Assembly: GCF_042242105.1 (NCBI RefSeq)
Contig: NC_092034.1
Coordinates: 15,137,644-15,201,643 of the forward strand
Direction: 5' to 3'
Length of the DNA stretch: 64,000 nt
From: Pempheris klunzingeri
Lineage: Eukaryota; Chordata; Actinopteri; Acropomatiformes; Pempheridae
Below the pieces are notes generated by a model, which was not told the DNA's origin, did not search any database, and worked only from the letters and a program-made list of their open reading frames with translations. The translations under genes and the position numbers were made by a program. Each line of letters starts with the position of its first letter. Within the stretch, counting starts at the first letter, position 1. Positions 4,816 through 63,527 of this stretch are shown piece after piece.

Positions 4816-14404
<9,589 letters not shown>

Positions 14405-50147: not shown

Positions 50148-50681
50148 GTATACTAATGTATACTAATAAACTGTATAGACAATTGAATTGTCTTGTTCGC
50201 ATCAAAACTGCAGGTGCAAATAATTACCATTTCAGGTTTAACTTCTTAAATACGCAGATTTATGCAAATGTAATGCAACAAAAGCTTCTTCGGTTTTTAA
50301 TTCTGATTCCAGAACAGCTGAAAGTGGCAACACGGTGAGGTCAAAGGGATCAGCCAGTAATAACAGGATGTTTGTGAATCAGAAGGTGTGCTTGTGCCAC
50401 ACAAGAGGTCCTCTGGCCTGCAAGAGGACCATGTGAGTTGTAAACACTTACGATTTAGAGGTTCGTGGCTGAAGGGACTTCCTGCTTTGCTCTGTCATCA
50501 CACTGACAGTCCAAAGCAGAGCACAAGGCCACTTCCGTCTCGTAGACCTTACAGGAAGCACCACACAAAGTAGGCTGTTTGCAGGAAATGCAGTTATCAA
50601 CATTAAAATCAATCCCTTGTTTTAATGGCAAATGCAATATATGTATGCTGAGCATGTCTACACGATGAAGTGTAGCAAATA

Positions 50682-52266
50682 CAGTTAAGCCAGAAAGTAT
50701 TCATACCCCTGGCAAGTTTTGACTTAGTTACTTTTATTCAACCAGCAAGTTTTTTCTTGATTGGAAATGGCACAGGCGTCTCCCAGAAGATTATAAGACG
50801 ATGTACAAGAGGCATCATTGTGGAAAAAAATATTTCTCAGCTTTTATTTACATTTGAACAAAAAGTGGCATGTCCAAAATGATTCATACCCTTCTCTATA
50901 ATCAATAGAAAAGCCTTTATTGGCTATTACAGTAATCAAACGCTTCCTATAATTGCTGACCAGCTGCATGTCTCACTGGTATTTTTGCCCATTCATCTTA
51001 AGTGATGAGCTCCAACTCTTTCAGGTTGGAGGGTCTCCTTGCCATCACCCTGATCTTTAGCTCCCTCCACAGATTCTCAATTGGATTCAAGTCAGGACTC
51101 TGGCTGGACTACTGTCCGCTAACCATTTCTTCACCACTTTTGCTGTGTGTTTTGGGTCGTTGTCGTGCTGAAATGTCCACTGGTGCCCAAGGCCAAGTTT
51201 CTCTGCAGACTGCTTGATATTGTTGTTGAGAATCTTGATGTATTGCTCTTTTTTCATGGTGCTGTTTACTGTGATTAGGTTCCCTGGTCCATTGGCTGAA
51301 AACACCCCCAAAGCATTAGGTTCCCACCACCATGTTTGACAGTGAGGATGGTGTTCTTAGGGTTGAAGGCTTCTCCTTTTTTACGCCAAATGAAGGACAC
51401 ATCATTGTGGCCAAACAATTCAATTTTTGTTTCATCTGACCTTAAAACAGAAGACCAGAAGTCTTCTTCTTTGTCCAGATGAGCATTTGCAAAGGCCAAG
51501 CGGGCTTTTGTGTGCCTTATCTGGAGAAGTGGCGTCCTCCTTGGTCTGCGTCCGTGGAACCCAGCAGTGTGCAGGGTCCGTTGGACTGTCTGCCTTGAGA
51601 CGTTGCCACCAGCAGAGCCCAGATTCACCAGGATGGCCTTGGTGGTGATCCTGGGATTCTTTTTCACCTTTCTCACTATCCTCCTGGCCAGCACAGGTGT
51701 CACTTTTGGCTCCCGACCACGTCCTCTGAGATTTTCCACAGTGCGGAACGTCTTGTATTTTTTAATAATACTTTGCACTGTAGCCACTGGAACTTGAAAA
51801 CATTTAGATATGGCCTTATAGCCCTTTCCTGACTTGTGAGCAGCCGCAGGTCCTCAGTGAGCTCCTTTGTCTTAGCCATGACTGTCCACAAACCAACTGC
51901 AGAGAGCTGCTGTTTTTCACCTATTGAGTTGATTAAAACTGTTCCTGCTGCTGCTGTTCCCAATGAATCAGGGTAATTAGGATGCTTTAGAACAGCTTGG
52001 ACTATTTGGAATGGTATAGAACTTTGGATTTTCCCATTGACTGTGACAGTTTGCAAAGGGTATGAATAATTTTGGACATGCCACTTTTTGTTCAAATGTG
52101 AATAAAAGCTGAGAAATTTTTTTTCCACAATGATGCCTCTTGTACATCGTCTTATTATCTTCTGGGAGACGCCTGTGTCATTTCCAATCAAGTAAAAACT
52201 TGCTGGTTGAATAAAAGTAACTAAGTCAAAATTTGCCAGGAGTATGAAGAATTTCGGGCTTAACTG
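50682..52266 (-). mobile_element. full-length but inactive Tc1-like DNA transposon
   Basis: The 1,585-base element is bounded by TA duplications at 50680-50681 and 52267-52268. Terminal inverted repeats of about 210 bases (50682-50891 and 52058-52266) each carry an outer and an inner copy of an ATTCATACCC-type motif, the IR/DR layout of Sleeping Beauty-class elements. The transposase is on the minus strand and starts MAKTKELTEDLR. It includes SIIKKYKTFRTVENLRGRGR and the catalytic blocks SDETKIELFG and QHDNDPKHTAKVV. It is split across frames near 51,300 and 51,780, and further breaks follow the second catalytic block, so it is dead. Confidence 0.92.
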
Positions 52267-52268
52267 TA

Positions 52269-58165
<5,897 letters not shown>

Positions 58166-58793
58166 AGGTTGAGGGATATTCGTAGCAGATCTCCTTTCCT
58201 CCTCACCTACTGGATGCGTGTGGTGTAAACGTAAAGGGACCGTACTGTCTATGAACTGTGTTCTCCTCTTTCATGTACTTTTCATACAATGTTTTGTAGA
58301 TGTTGCTACTTGCCATCCAGTAGTCCCATTTTTCAATGCCCCCTTCTCTCCCTGTCCTCCAAACTCCACATTTTAGCAATAAAATCACTCCATAGATGCA
58401 TTGTCTTTTTAAAAAAATTTTTTAATTCCTTGTTTTATTTTTCATGCATCACTGATAATTGGCTAATTTGTTTAACACGTGTTGTTTTGTTTGTACAACG
58501 GTCAAAAAATTGTGGCTTATAGCCTGAGTCTCAATAGCGGCATCAGGATCAGTGCATCCCTACTCCTGACCCCAATCAGCCCTGTTGAGAAGCTTCTTCC
58601 CATCGGTGATGAGTGTTCTGTATAAATCAGTACTGATGTGGATATTCATGAGTAAACATTTCACCACTCTGTGTTCTGATCACTGATAACGGAGCTATTT
58701 CTGTGTTGACACACTGATTCAAGTGCAGCAGGCAGTGTTTCACAACCCGGACACTGTTTTTAAGTCTCATTATTGCTGCCTCATGTCCGTCAG

Positions 58794-61209
58794 TCCAAAC
58801 AGCGAGCCCCTTCATAGAGATCATCGAGCAGCCGAAGCAGAGGGGGATGAGGTTCAGGTATAAGTGTGAGGGGCGTTCAGCTGGCAGCATCCCCGGAGAG
58901 AAGAGCAACGACACCACGAAGACCCACCCAGCCATCAAGGTGAGCCGGATGCAGCTTTCCTCATGATTTTTTTTTTCAGTTTCTTGGCTTGTATTTTATT
59001 TTATTTTTTTTACATCAATGTTCCAAAAATTTGCTTTTCATTCCATGCTTGATTCGAGCCTTGCAGCGTTCCTTGTCTTTGTTTTTTTTTTTTGTTTTTT
59101 TTTTCGGGGTCGTCATCATGTGGCCAAAGTGTGGAATAAGTAGAGCAGCAAAGATTCTTTTGTTTCCCAGGTTAAGAATGAATCATTACTCAAGTTTACA
59201 GAAGATTTTTAAAAATGTCAAAGTGCCAACTCGTGCCAAAGTTTGGGGGCAAAGACAGTAAATGCATCATTTGCCTTCATTAGATACAGCATAACATCAC
59301 ATGAATGTATTGAAAATAGGTTCAAGTGTTAGCAATTAAGACATGCATACAATTTAAAAGAGTTTGATGTTTTGATAGATGGATGCACACTTTATTCTTC
59401 CTTTAGGAGAAATTCAGGTATCCAGTAGCTCCCACAGTCAACTGACAAACAATAGAATGTAGAAGTGATAAATAATGACAGACAGACAGCCGGACAGAGG
59501 GAGAGCGTGGGTGGGTCATGAGCCACAGCCCTCAGTTGAGGTGTTGTACAGTCAGTGATGGCTGTGGGGACAAAAGGATCCTCTGAACCACTCAGTCCTC
59601 ATCTGTATTCAGGGACCAGTCCACTTTGTTGTCCTGCTGCACATCTAAGTATTTGTAGGATTGCACCACATCCATGTCCTTTCCTCAAATGTTGACTGGG
59701 TGAGGTGGGGGTTTAGATCTACAACAGCCCATGACCGTCTCCTTGGTCTTGGAGGTGTTCAGTAGGAGGCCATTCCTCTCACTCCAGCCCCTAAAGGCTC
59801 TGACCAGGACCCTGCTTCCAGCCCTCTGAGGTGCTATTGAAACGGCCTCATTTGATCATTGAGCTATGACATATTGTTCCTGCAGGTGCACAACTACAAC
59901 GGCCCCCTGCGTGTCCGCATCTCCTTGGTGACGAAGAACGCACCGCACAAGCCCCACCCCCACGAATTAGTAGGGAAAGACTGCAAACATGGCTACTACG
60001 AGGCCGACCTGCAGGAGAGGAGAATACACAGGTAGATTTGCATTTACTTGGACATCACACTCTGTATCTCACACACTGTTGAGGAACTCAAAATGGATGA
60101 AGGAAACGATGCAAAAACGTGGGTTGATAGATATTCAGCTGAATAATAATCTGCCACGGCACCAAAGCAAGTAATAAAACTGTGCTCTCTAAGTGTTTTT
60201 TAGTTAAAAACTCAGAATACTCGTGATGAGAAGAGTCCAAATAACAGACACTAGGTGTGTTTAAAATGTGATCACCAGTGTGCTAAGGCAGTGCTTATTG
60301 GCAAAAATGAAATCTTAAGCCTGAGTGCATGGCAGTGCAGTACCTACGCTGTAATCTGGGCTGAAGTGCACCTCCTCATATCGTATAATCAACATCAGCT
60401 ATTATTAGTTAACTTAGGTTTGAGTTATAGAACTGTGAATTGGGCGTTTGGCCCCAGTTATTACAGCATTCAGCTTCACATAGAAAAGCTGAAACACAGA
60501 AGAAGTCATAATGTCAAATACTACTACTATTAATAGTGAACTAGAAAGTACGAGTACAGAAGGCTTCAGTGGTTTCTGTCTTTAGCTTTCAGACTTACAC
60601 TGCATCTGCTTTCAGTTTCCAGAACCTGGGCATACAGTGTGTGAAGAAGAAGGATGTGAACGAGGCCATCACTTGTAGGCTGCAGACTAATAACAACCCC
60701 TTCAGCAGTAAGTGGTCCTCCATAGAGAGGAGTGGACAACACAGAGCACTTTCTGTGTTGGTCACATCTGACATCAGAGTGTCCCTGAACGCCTCACTCA
60801 AATGGAAAGGCTGGAGCTTTACTGAACTACTACTGGTATTAAGAGAGAAATGACTTGATCACAGTCTCAGTAACCAGTAACCATATACTTTATACCATGT
60901 TTCTACTTTATACCAGAAGTGTAAATGCAGTTAGTGTAAGAACAGGAAGTGTAATGTGTCACTTTCACCCCAGGCTGATATTTAGATACTGAGAGCCTGC
61001 ATATGACAGGATGCAGAGCTGCTGTGTTGCCTGACTGTGCGCCCCGCCCTTTCCCCGCTGTGTCCTGGCTGCAGTTCCCGAGGCGAAGGTGTGGGAGGAG
61101 GAGTTTGACCTGAACTCAGTTCGGCTTTGCTTCCAGGCCTCCATCACTCTGCCTACAGGGGAGCTGTTTCCTCTGGAGCCGGTGGTGTCGCAGCCCATCT
61201 ACGACAACA
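58794..61209 (+). CDS. Rel homology DNA-binding domain exons (partial rela copy)
   Basis: Exons 58794-58939, 59886-60031, 60616-60707 and 61075-61209 have the same lengths (146, 146, 92, 135) and the same GT/AG sites and phases as rela exons 3-6. I saw no coding difference. They encode the complete DNA-binding half of the RHD (173 residues), including FRYKCEGRS and [13 protein letters not shown]. The dimerisation domain, NLS and activation domain are absent. Exon 1 is missing and the exon 2 remnant (about 58,565-58,583) has lost its splice donor (CTGTTGAG in place of CAGGTGAG), so the segment has no rela start. The first in-frame ATG is at 58,847, just before RFRYK. Unspliced, the frame ends 39 bases past exon 6. 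The segment is either a relic or internal exons of a chimeric gene (see the next entries). Confidence 0.75.
59389..59850 (-). mobile_element. LINE fragment (reverse transcriptase part) in intron of the rela copy
   Basis: On the minus strand the translation gives [26 protein letters not shown] and [10 protein letters not shown], with stops between them. These are the conserved blocks near the C-terminal end of the RT of L2/Rex1-type LINEs. The CTTTATTCTTCC...GAGAAATTC sequence at its left is a typical LINE tail. It is absent from the equivalent intron of the original rela, so it inserted after the duplication. Confidence 0.75.
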
Positions 61210-61632
61210 GTGAGTGGAGAACACACACACAAGCACATGCAGTGTGTTAGCGTTCAGTGGGTGCAGACCTTTGAATGCTCATATTGATACTTTAGGGTAA
61301 AAAGTGCTGATAGTGAATACTGTGCGTTCTTTAATGTCTTTTGAGTATTTCTTACACTCATTTTGCCCAAAAATCAGACGAGTTCAGTGGATCTTTGCTC
61401 ACTGTAAGCTGATAAACCTACAGTGGATTTTGGGGTTTGTGTGAACTCTATGTAGCCACACAGTTATTCAACATAAAGCTCACAAGTCTCTCAAAAACTC
61501 TTTGCATTAACTTCTCTTATCAGTGTGAAGGTATAAATGAGAAGTGGTCTCAGTAGTGATGATGCTTCTCTTTACTCTGTCATTCACCCCCCCCCCCGCC
61601 CCTCTGAAACTTTACCCTTGTGCTTTAACAAG
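61210..61632 (+). other. junction region between rela copy and FIIND-CARD gene
   Basis: Rela intron 6 homology runs to 61,432, after which unrelated sequence begins. A poly-C run is at 61,589-61,598. A pyrimidine-rich stretch ending AACAAG at 61,632 could serve as a splice acceptor for the exon at 61,633. Confidence 0.5.
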
Positions 61633-61649
61633 GGAGTTCTGGGTGGTTG

Positions 61650-63527
61650 ATGCTTGGAGCTCATAGCAGTGTAAAGGTAAGTGTTCTGTTTCTGATTTCT
61701 CCTCTTTGATATTGATTTTTGAAAAATAGCAGATCCAACGATTGCAGCAGCTTATAAAACAACCATGATGCTCCTATACAGGCCTCCGGCACTTGGACTA
61801 AACTTGATCCGAAAGTCAGTAGAGTGGATGGGGTTCGCACCTATAGGTAAAGATAATACCCTTTAGTGATAATTTAATGCATATTCCAGAACACAATTAA
61901 TCATTTCCCCTTTCTGGAAATCAGCCTCCAGTCTGAGGCAGGCAGCTATGAATGCACTGTGTCCACCCTGCGCTGGGTTTGTAAAGAAAGAACCAGCGTC
62001 AGGTACCAGTTTAGCTCGTGGGAGGAGCCCATGATGAGGCCTGCATGCATCGATTACATGCCAGCAGGACCCCTACTGGACATCACAGTCACAGCTGGGA
62101 AGATAGAGGAGCTGCATCTGCCTCACGGGGTCTGTATAGGTGAGTGGGCAGCTGATCACAGAGTGAGATGCAGGCTGGGAGGGCAGGACAGGAGGGGTTT
62201 CCCTCATCACTCAGTTTGTGCTCTGCAGATCAAAAGTCCGCCGTATCGGACATGTTCACAGTCCTGCACGTTGATACCTGCGGAGACGTCTTGGAGCTCG
62301 CGTCTGAAGTTACGTCGTCCCACGTCAAGTTGCTCCAGCCGACTTTCTCACCGATCGGCGTCATGATTCGGAAGAAGCTGGGGATTCCTTTTTACTATGA
62401 CGTGTTAATATACAAGACGAAGAAAGAGTTCCTCACGTTGGATGTTTACCTGGTGCCACACAATCCTGCTCTTCAACAGGTTTCCATTTCATTCACAATT
62501 GCAAGATGGAACACAAAAAAATGTCTCTCTGTCTTTGATTTTTTTTTTGCGGATCTTTTATCCTGTACTCTTTTTTTTCCCTGCAGGAAGTGGAAACAAA
62601 GCAGATGACTTTTGGATCAATAATAATCCCCAAACCAGGCCCAGACAAGTGCCTTCAAATGGGAGATCGTTTCTCACTCACCACAGACAAGGCAGAGGCG
62701 AACATTCAGCCCAGAGTATGTTTCAACAGTTCAAACACTCGCTATTAGAACTGTTCTTTTCTTTCATATAAACCCTGTTTCTAATGTTTTCAGACACGAG
62801 AGCTCAGGTATGATGGCAGAAATGTCTTTGAGGTGTTCTTCAGAGACGCAGACGGCGACTTCACCATCAGGCTCGAAAGTGAGAAAGACACAATCTGGAC
62901 CTGTACTATTCATAAAGGTCAGTGGTTTTTCAACAACTTTAAACTCATCGATCTGCAGCCCAATGAACCACCTTTGTCCTGCTTAGCTGAACATGCACAT
63001 CTGTGTGTTGTGAATCCAGTGGTGGGAAAAAAAAGACACTGACTCGGCACAGTTTCCACTTACTATAGTGTGTTTTATTGCAGGAGACTACCAAAATCAA
63101 AGCACCGATCAGACACAAGGTAAAAACACATAACAGGAACAAGTGTCAGATGACTTCATACATGTCAGCTTGCAGTATTCACCGTTCTTCCTGTTTACCC
63201 TCCACGGCAGCCTCGGGTGAGCATTTCGTGGATCTCCATCGGACGGCTCTGATAAACAGAGTGAAAGACACGGGACCCGTCCTGGATCGGCTCGTGGATA
63301 AGGGGCTGGTCTCAGACGAGAACTACAACGCGACGAGAGCTTTAAAAACCACACAAGACCAGATGAGGGACATCCACAGGTTTGTGACTGCAGCAGGCAC
63401 AACAGGCAAAGACGTCTTCTACGAAATCCTCAAAAGCACGAAGGCTACGAGGGCTCTTGTTGCCGAGCTCGAGAGAACAAACGTAAAAACAAGAGCTGTA
63501 GCTTTGGGCAGCCGGTCGCTGAGATGA
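61650..63527 (+). CDS. FIIND-CARD protein (NLRP1/CARD8-type), intact
   Basis: Exons 61650-61676, 61782-61846, 61925-62139, 62229-62479, 62587-62715, 62794-62917, 63084-63119 and 63211-63527. All phases agree, giving 1,164 nt = 387 aa from the ATG at 61,650. Residues about 12-142 are the ZU5 half (SGTWTKLDPK, SLQSEAGSYECTVSTLRWVC). Residues 143-275 are UPA (SPIGVMIRKKLGIPFYYDVL, EVFFRDADGDFTIRLES, IWTCTIHKG). Residues about 284-370 are the CARD (EHFVDLHRTALINRVKD). The candidate autoproteolysis site is Phe142-Ser143, with His116 and Glu125 upstream. Such proteins self-cleave and free a UPA-CARD fragment that assembles an inflammasome when the N-terminal part is degraded. No NACHT or LRR is encoded here, so the architecture resembles CARD8. 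The ATG context is weak (GGTTGATGC) and the first exon may be internal. Confidence 0.88.

Follow-up and report, generated by a model that had tools for sequence, protein, structure and literature searches.

A 64,000-nucleotide stretch of the Pempheris klunzingeri genome (C23:15,137,644-15,201,643; hereafter the window, whose own numbering is used wherever no contig is named) contains a long open reading frame in which partial copies of two genes, a map3k and rela (the gene for NF-kB p65), precede a FIIND-CARD cassette. Joined across 16 exons, the frame stays open for 1,021 residues and encodes the domain order SH3-pseudokinase-RHD-FIIND-CARD, where RHD is the Rel homology domain. We read it tentatively, at somewhat less than even confidence, as a single chimeric gene with about 16 coding exons, predicted to encode a FIIND-CARD sensor in which two integrated decoy domains stand where NACHT-LRR would normally be. 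The genome-wide searches reported below cover one 646-Mb fish assembly.

The joined frame

All 15 introns of the joined frame are of the GT-AG type, and both new joins, from map3k to rela and from rela to FIIND, fall in phase 1. A Pfam scan of the joined protein places SH3, protein kinase, RHD_DNA_bind (complete, 1-169 of 169), FIIND (1.5e-37), UPA-FIIND (4.9e-23) and CARD (5.2e-11) above their cut-offs, giving the FIIND-then-CARD architecture; Abi_alpha and Agenet fell below theirs. The first-pass annotation of this DNA had already placed rela exons 3-6 in frame upstream of FIIND-CARD, and its coordinates hold, as does the phase-1 end of the rela exons at 61,209. Its domain identities for RHD, FIIND, UPA and CARD agree with the Pfam scan. 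It was also right that the acceptor of the exon at 61,633 restores the phase and that the exons from 61,633 to 63,527 are open to the stop codon. The alternative junction that it offered, from 61,209 to 61,782, fails, being out of frame and reaching a TAA after six codons. Its proposal of a Rel-FIIND-CARD sensor stands in part: the frame is real and the entry exon of the cassette is conserved with phase-1 entry, but the description was incomplete, as an inactivated MAP3K part, and not Rel, most probably forms the start of the predicted protein.

Neither putative decoy part should signal, because the RHD copy lacks dimerization and activation domains and the kinase lacks its DFG motif. Dead copies of two immune-pathway proteins, carried on a CARD released by degradation, would be what an integrated decoy is expected to look like. 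The combination that defines such a decoy, a target domain and a sensor in one polypeptide, is present here at the level of a genomic reading frame.

The rela copy

The window holds both the source gene and its inverted copy:

12,949 (ATG) to near 4,820 (stop), minus strand: rela source gene, complete-looking
12,320-12,175, 11,475-11,330, 9,756-9,665 and 9,297-9,163, minus strand: source exons matching copy exons 3-6
8940..12549, minus strand: stretch of the intact rela with homology to the copy
58565..58584, plus strand: remnant of rela exon 2, donor GT now TT; homology begins at 58,565
58794..58939, plus strand: rela-copy exon 3 (RHD, including the stretch with the AIP56 site), identical to 12,320-12,175 of the minus strand
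59886..60031, plus strand: rela-copy exon 4; exon identical, donor gtaggt changed to gtagat
60616..60707, plus strand: rela-copy exon 5; exon and splice sites identical
61075..61209, plus strand: rela-copy exon 6 with a phase-1 donor; exon and donor identical

The copy extends from 58,565 to 61,432, starting inside exon 2 and ending in intron 6. Its exons 3-6 match the source at 519 of 519 nucleotides, and all four carry AG/GT borders. Exon 1 is missing and the exon-2 donor is destroyed, leaving no usable exon 2, so that the copy requires a foreign 5' end. The RHD dimerization domain was not found in the copy, which holds exons 3-6 only and in which rela homology stops at 61,432. Across the genome, the RHD query matched at 89% identity or more only in the true rela and in the window copy; other matches reached at most 68%.

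The identity is distributed unevenly. Three tracts are close to the source, with 7 mismatches in 397 positions (58,565-58,961), 2 mismatches and a 5-bp gap (59,814-60,060) and 5 mismatches in 1,003 positions (60,430-61,432), and the introns between them are mostly unalignable, with two short matching pieces of 66 bp at 82% and 43 bp at 88% identity (Fisher P 1e-13 for the contrast between tracts and intervening introns). Global alignment of these introns scored above all 40 shuffles; its identities, 78 and 81%, are no better than the 76 and 81% of shuffled sequence, and only the short pieces therefore count. In the rela and map3k copies alike, the exons sit in tracts of 97-99.6% identity to the sources beside mostly unalignable introns, a pattern typical of old copies that later underwent gene conversion. 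The simplest account would be an old inverted rela copy partly overwritten by recent conversion, although a second, recent copying event may instead be the source of the identity. A single recent duplication is disfavored, given how little aligns between the tracts and that similarity falls to 83-90% in parts of the map3k copy. None of the 14 differences within the rela tracts is exonic (P = 0.005; 0.033 when the five nearest the outer edge are left out; positions treated as independent).

The map3k copy

Upstream of the rela copy lies a partial copy of a second gene:

52441..53080, plus strand: copied map3k 5' flank and 5' untranslated region, a candidate promoter; 78-96% identical per 60-bp step to C23:15128150-15127219 of the minus strand, with many indels
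53081..53816, plus strand: map3k-copy exon 1 with ATG, SH3 and kinase N-lobe; open frame, 82% amino acid identity over 245 residues
54288..54468, plus strand: map3k-copy exon 2, activation segment, DFG changed to NFS by codon comparison with the real map3k
56651..56799, plus strand: map3k-copy exon 3, kinase C-lobe; 1 amino acid difference in 49
57801..58100, plus strand: map3k-copy exons 4 and 5 fused via a retained intron, phase-1 donor at 58,100; aligned to C23:15104040-15103515

The true map3k, of the MLK type, sits outside the window, to its left, and on the minus strand, with exon 1 at C23:15,127,218. Its copy (53,081-58,100) is inverted and stands directly upstream of the rela copy on the same strand. 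The copy order, map3k then rela, reverses the source-strand order, rela then map3k, which rules out a simple inverted segmental duplication and implies that two pieces were joined. A gene nested within a map3k intron is ruled out as well, as real map3k 3' exons were unmatched from 58,101 to 19.9 kb past the window, with open reading frames of at least 40 codons in 10.5 kb, including HKITVQASP, as queries. The 455-bp spacer between the two copies (58,111-58,564) has no match within the surrounding 128 kb.

Similarity to the true map3k is likewise uneven. The region 56,595-58,110 has 7 mismatches in about 1.5 kb, and the kinase half of exon 1 differs from the real gene by 6 nucleotides in 135 codons; the less similar parts are the 5' flank and SH3 side, at about 83%, and exon 2 with its flanks, at about 90%. 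Intron 1 measures about 18 kb in the true gene (C23:15126408-15108538) and about 0.5 kb in the copy (window 53870-54160). A 50-bp deletion removed a donor from the copy, where the retained intron reads open in frame, and an in-frame deletion of 165 bp left little of the leucine zipper. At 58,100, the exon-5 donor has the same sequence as in the true gene, and its phase, 1, is that of the rela exon-3 acceptor.

In exon 2, nine of 60 codons differ, all nine non-synonymously and none synonymously, and eight of the nine lie between DFG and APE (P 0.007, computed with 26 codons for that interval). The activation loop is not that of an active MLK, with NFS for DFG and TMVGSR for STAGTY. DFG is retained in the true map3k and in three further MLK genes of this genome. 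When 14 random substitutions were placed in exon 2, 3.8% of trials gave no synonymous codon and 2.0% gave neither a synonymous codon nor a stop. The pattern is a modest hint that selection has favored loss of kinase activity.

Immediately beside the map3k-copy boundary (52,441), on its left, is a transposon-like element (window 50679-52269; labeled Tc1 by eye) with inverted ends of about 215 bp that are 95% identical. The element may have contributed to the rearrangement.

The FIIND-UPA-CARD cassette

The cassette consists of eight exons, here numbered f1 to f7 and CARD:

61633..61676, plus strand: entry exon f1, phase 1 in and phase 0 out, with an in-frame ATG at 61,650; 44 nt, AAG|GG in four of the four paralogs compared
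61782..61846, plus strand: FIIND exon f2, with matches in the C3, C23, C8 and C21 paralogs
61925..62139, plus strand: FIIND exon f3 (ZU5)
62229..62479, plus strand: FIIND exon f4 with the TF|S self-cleavage site, aligned to NLRP1 and CARD8
62587..62715, plus strand: UPA exon f5
62794..62917, plus strand: UPA exon f6
63084..63119, plus strand: linker exon f7
63211..63527, plus strand: CARD exon and stop codon

The phases of f1 are fixed by exon f2. The comparison of f1 covers four of the ten FIIND regions retrieved (L012-L021), namely those in which tblastn found f2. The exon preceding f1 ends in phase 1 in all three of the paralogs in which it was read by eye (the C8 gene was not among them). 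With f1 present in four of four paralogs and entered in phase 1, the fusion would use the normal entry point of the FIIND family.

Self-cleavage in CARD8 involves Phe-296, Ser-297, His-252, His-270 and Glu-279, as given in the accessible part of PMC3210808. Alignment to the structures 6x6c and 7jkq finds these residues kept here, both the F|S pair and the positions of His-252, His-270 and Glu-279. The site itself reads PTF|SPIG, compared with PSF|SP in NLRP1 and PSF|SL in CARD8. The f4 donor is weak in the window gene, and likewise in the paralogs.

Relics of NACHT, LRR or PYD were not found at E 1 or better by tblastn in the window, in 9.9 kb to its left or in 19.9 kb to its right (queries were one paralog's NACHT, two LRR pieces and one PYD piece), nor in the Pfam scan of the joined protein; the stretch from 32.4 to 53 kb of the window was covered for these domains by tblastn only. 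The usual sensor part thus appears to be missing here, and rela exon 6 offers the phase that the FIIND cassette would be expected to require.

At least 33 exon-level FIIND matches exist in the genome, five of which (C21:20,153,478, two at C21:21,828 kb, C9:1,019,780 and C10:10,130,219) were left unretrieved. Some of the other loci, as read by eye, have unusual N-termini of their own. At C8:22172000-22181900 (L015), five PYD-like open frames, partly in duplicated units, lie upstream of FIIND without NACHT-LRR. At C21:22080500-22090400 (L018), the NACHT-type open frame of the FIIND gene holds a long acidic EYDQND repeat. The region C21:20138414-20204745 (L001-L008, L021) contains nine FIIND matches of near-equal score in open frames of 590 to 4,196 codons; two of the nine were looked at, of which L008 has an N-terminus of many tandem EEEKETPVYGSYKVVEETRAENIK-type repeats and L021 a short N-terminus, both with CARD-like ends. 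This array possibly encodes CARD8-like proteins with repeat baits of variable length.

Alternative explanations

Several points weigh against a single chimeric sensor gene. Its support comes from one genome, and agreement in phase at two joins would arise by chance about once in nine cases if phases were even. The FIIND-CARD dN/dS of 0.29-0.48 against three paralogs (237-313 codons), which in itself favors the chimeric gene, is pairwise and also reflects constraint on those paralogs; the SH3 side of the map3k copy evolves fast, with a dN/dS of 0.66; and replacement changes are only modestly overrepresented in exon 2 (P 0.038 by simulation for the absence of synonymous change). On a simple splice-site matrix, the rela-copy exon-4 donor scores 2.3 against 6.1 in rela, and the f1 acceptor, at 0.4, is the lowest of 15. 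That weak acceptor also favors the main rival, a realistic possibility that we nonetheless rate well short of even: a separate short CARD8-like FIIND-CARD gene that starts at the ATG at 61,650 (MLGAHSSVK-FIIND-CARD) or in an unseen 5' exon, with the map3k and rela copies as pseudogene fragments. The in-frame ATG, which would permit such a start, is found in the window copy and at that codon in none of the four paralogs; DFG and most of the zipper are missing from the map3k copy, which also depends on a retained intron, and this fits decay too; and the donor of rela exon 2 is gone. However, f1 is of the internal type in the paralogs and its AAG|GG border is kept in the window copy. By the usual rule for start-codon context, TTGATGC is poor, and nine residues before exon f2 would leave a standalone protein with almost no bait. 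Moreover, 1,021 open codons, coding indels that are net in frame, and Rel exons without a change would be unexpected of dead fragments, whereas a truly decayed FIIND fragment in the same genome (C4:11,357,480-11358457, L044) has stop codons, and its exons f1 to f3 were not found.

It is also conceivable, although we consider it improbable, that a map3k-rela-FIIND-CARD transcript is made and has no sensor role, as a neutral chimera kept tidy only by conversion with rela and map3k. The high-identity tracts include introns, so that conversion or recent re-copying, and not selection, explains most of the identity. Against this, the differences within the Rel tracts avoid exons, and FIIND-CARD is intact even though its recent conversion is unlikely, because the best other genomic DNA matches are only 67-85% identical. 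Finally, inverted repeats can mislead assemblers, and the tracts here, 1.0 and 1.5 kb long at about 99.5% identity, are of a kind to do so. An assembly error is nevertheless very hard to credit: contig C23 is 18.65 Mb long, the stretches retrieved are free of N, and the copies carry deletions of their own, a 5-bp gap, unalignable introns and nine codon changes absent from the sources.

Comparison with known systems

The C-terminal half of the predicted chimeric protein resembles NLRP1 and CARD8, the closest solved sequences, in its ZU5-UPA with an F|S site and the His and Glu residues, followed by CARD. It differs in that its N-terminus would be SH3-pseudokinase-RHD, where theirs is PYD-NACHT-LRR or a disordered stretch. 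Three NACHT-LRR-FIIND genes of the same genome (C3:1.39 Mb, C23:4.78 Mb and C21:22.09 Mb) share the order of f1 to f5 and CARD, phase-1 entry and weak f4 donors, but have NACHT and LRR open frames upstream (by eye), of which none were found at the window gene. The accessible part of PMC9978379 gives NACHT-LRR-FIIND-CARD as the architecture of fish NLRP1.

The copied parts relate to their sources in a similar way. The Rel part is identical in the DNA of exons 3-6 to the neighboring rela and has a complete RHD_DNA_bind; however, it lacks the dimerization domain, nuclear signal and transactivation domain of NF-kB p65 (RelA) and therefore cannot be a normal transcription factor. The SH3-kinase part is of the MAP3K9/10/11 (MLK) type, with 82-98% amino acid identity per exon (1-3) to the true map3k on the same chromosome and MAP3K9 as its closest solved kinase. 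Unlike these kinases, it has NFS for DFG, a rewritten activation loop, a largely deleted zipper and no 3' half. We know of no animal FIIND-CARD protein with whole copied target domains. In the open-licence literature, no protein combining FIIND with a Rel homology domain was found, and among the titles and opening lines of abstracts on teleost FIIND, kinase domains and domain shuffling no such fusion appears. The fusion of an effector-target copy to a sensor is shared with the integrated decoys of plant NLRs, and of NLRP1B as described in the accessible part of PMC11781737; the differences are that whole target domains would be copied here, and in an animal FIIND-CARD protein.

Proposed mechanism and significance

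If the chimeric sensor is real, the map3k-type 5' end would drive transcription of an RNA that splicing joins from the SH3-pseudokinase exons, RHD exons 3-6 and FIIND-UPA-CARD, with both new joins at phase-1 introns. The FIIND would then cut itself at TF|SPIG, and the halves would remain associated. A pathogen protease that cuts the RHD, or an effector that marks the MAP3K or RelA part for destruction, would act as the trigger; degradation of the N-terminal half would free UPA-CARD, which would nucleate an inflammasome as in NLRP1 and CARD8. Sensors of the NLRP1 type release their C-terminal CARD part when the N-terminal half is cut or degraded, as described in excerpts of PMC7857732 and PMC11781737. 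Gene conversion with rela would hold the bait identical to the true target.

The RHD is the part of p65 that bacterial proteases attack. According to the accessible part of PMC3585134, both NleC and AIP56 of the fish pathogen Photobacterium damselae piscicida cleave p65Rel of sea bass at Cys39-Glu40, and its Met1-Arg188 portion, made by in-vitro translation, served as a substrate. NF-kB subunits are likewise cut by Salmonella GtgA (PMC6166728, in part). The copied segment is the N-terminal Rel domain of p65 minus roughly 20 residues of exons 1-2, and the KC-EGRSA stretch, where AIP56 cuts p65, is intact in the copied RHD. Both features support the earlier suggestion that the N-terminus could serve as bait; that it would sense attack is a step we infer.

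FIIND-CARD proteins are described as sensing attack on their N-terminus, in NLRP1 by way of short mimics of protease sites. The fullest form of the present proposal, which we regard as rather unlikely, is a new class of animal sensor: a FIIND-CARD protein with two whole, signaling-dead baits, a MAP3K and the RelA DNA-binding domain, in which conversion keeps the RelA bait equal to the target, so that a RelA-attacking enzyme such as AIP56 must also attack the alarm. Were this so, the protein would be a sensor bearing the entire attacked domain, renewed by conversion from the gene of the target itself, and would do in an animal what integrated decoys do in plants. It should be triggered by toxins that cleave p65. 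The case would further suggest that exon shuffling, through a conserved phase-1 entry exon, can replace a NACHT-LRR with new bait.

Neighboring genes

Downstream of the CARD gene, at 68,900-72,600 on the window scale (L009-L010), are two near-identical open frames that appear, by eye, immunoglobulin-like.

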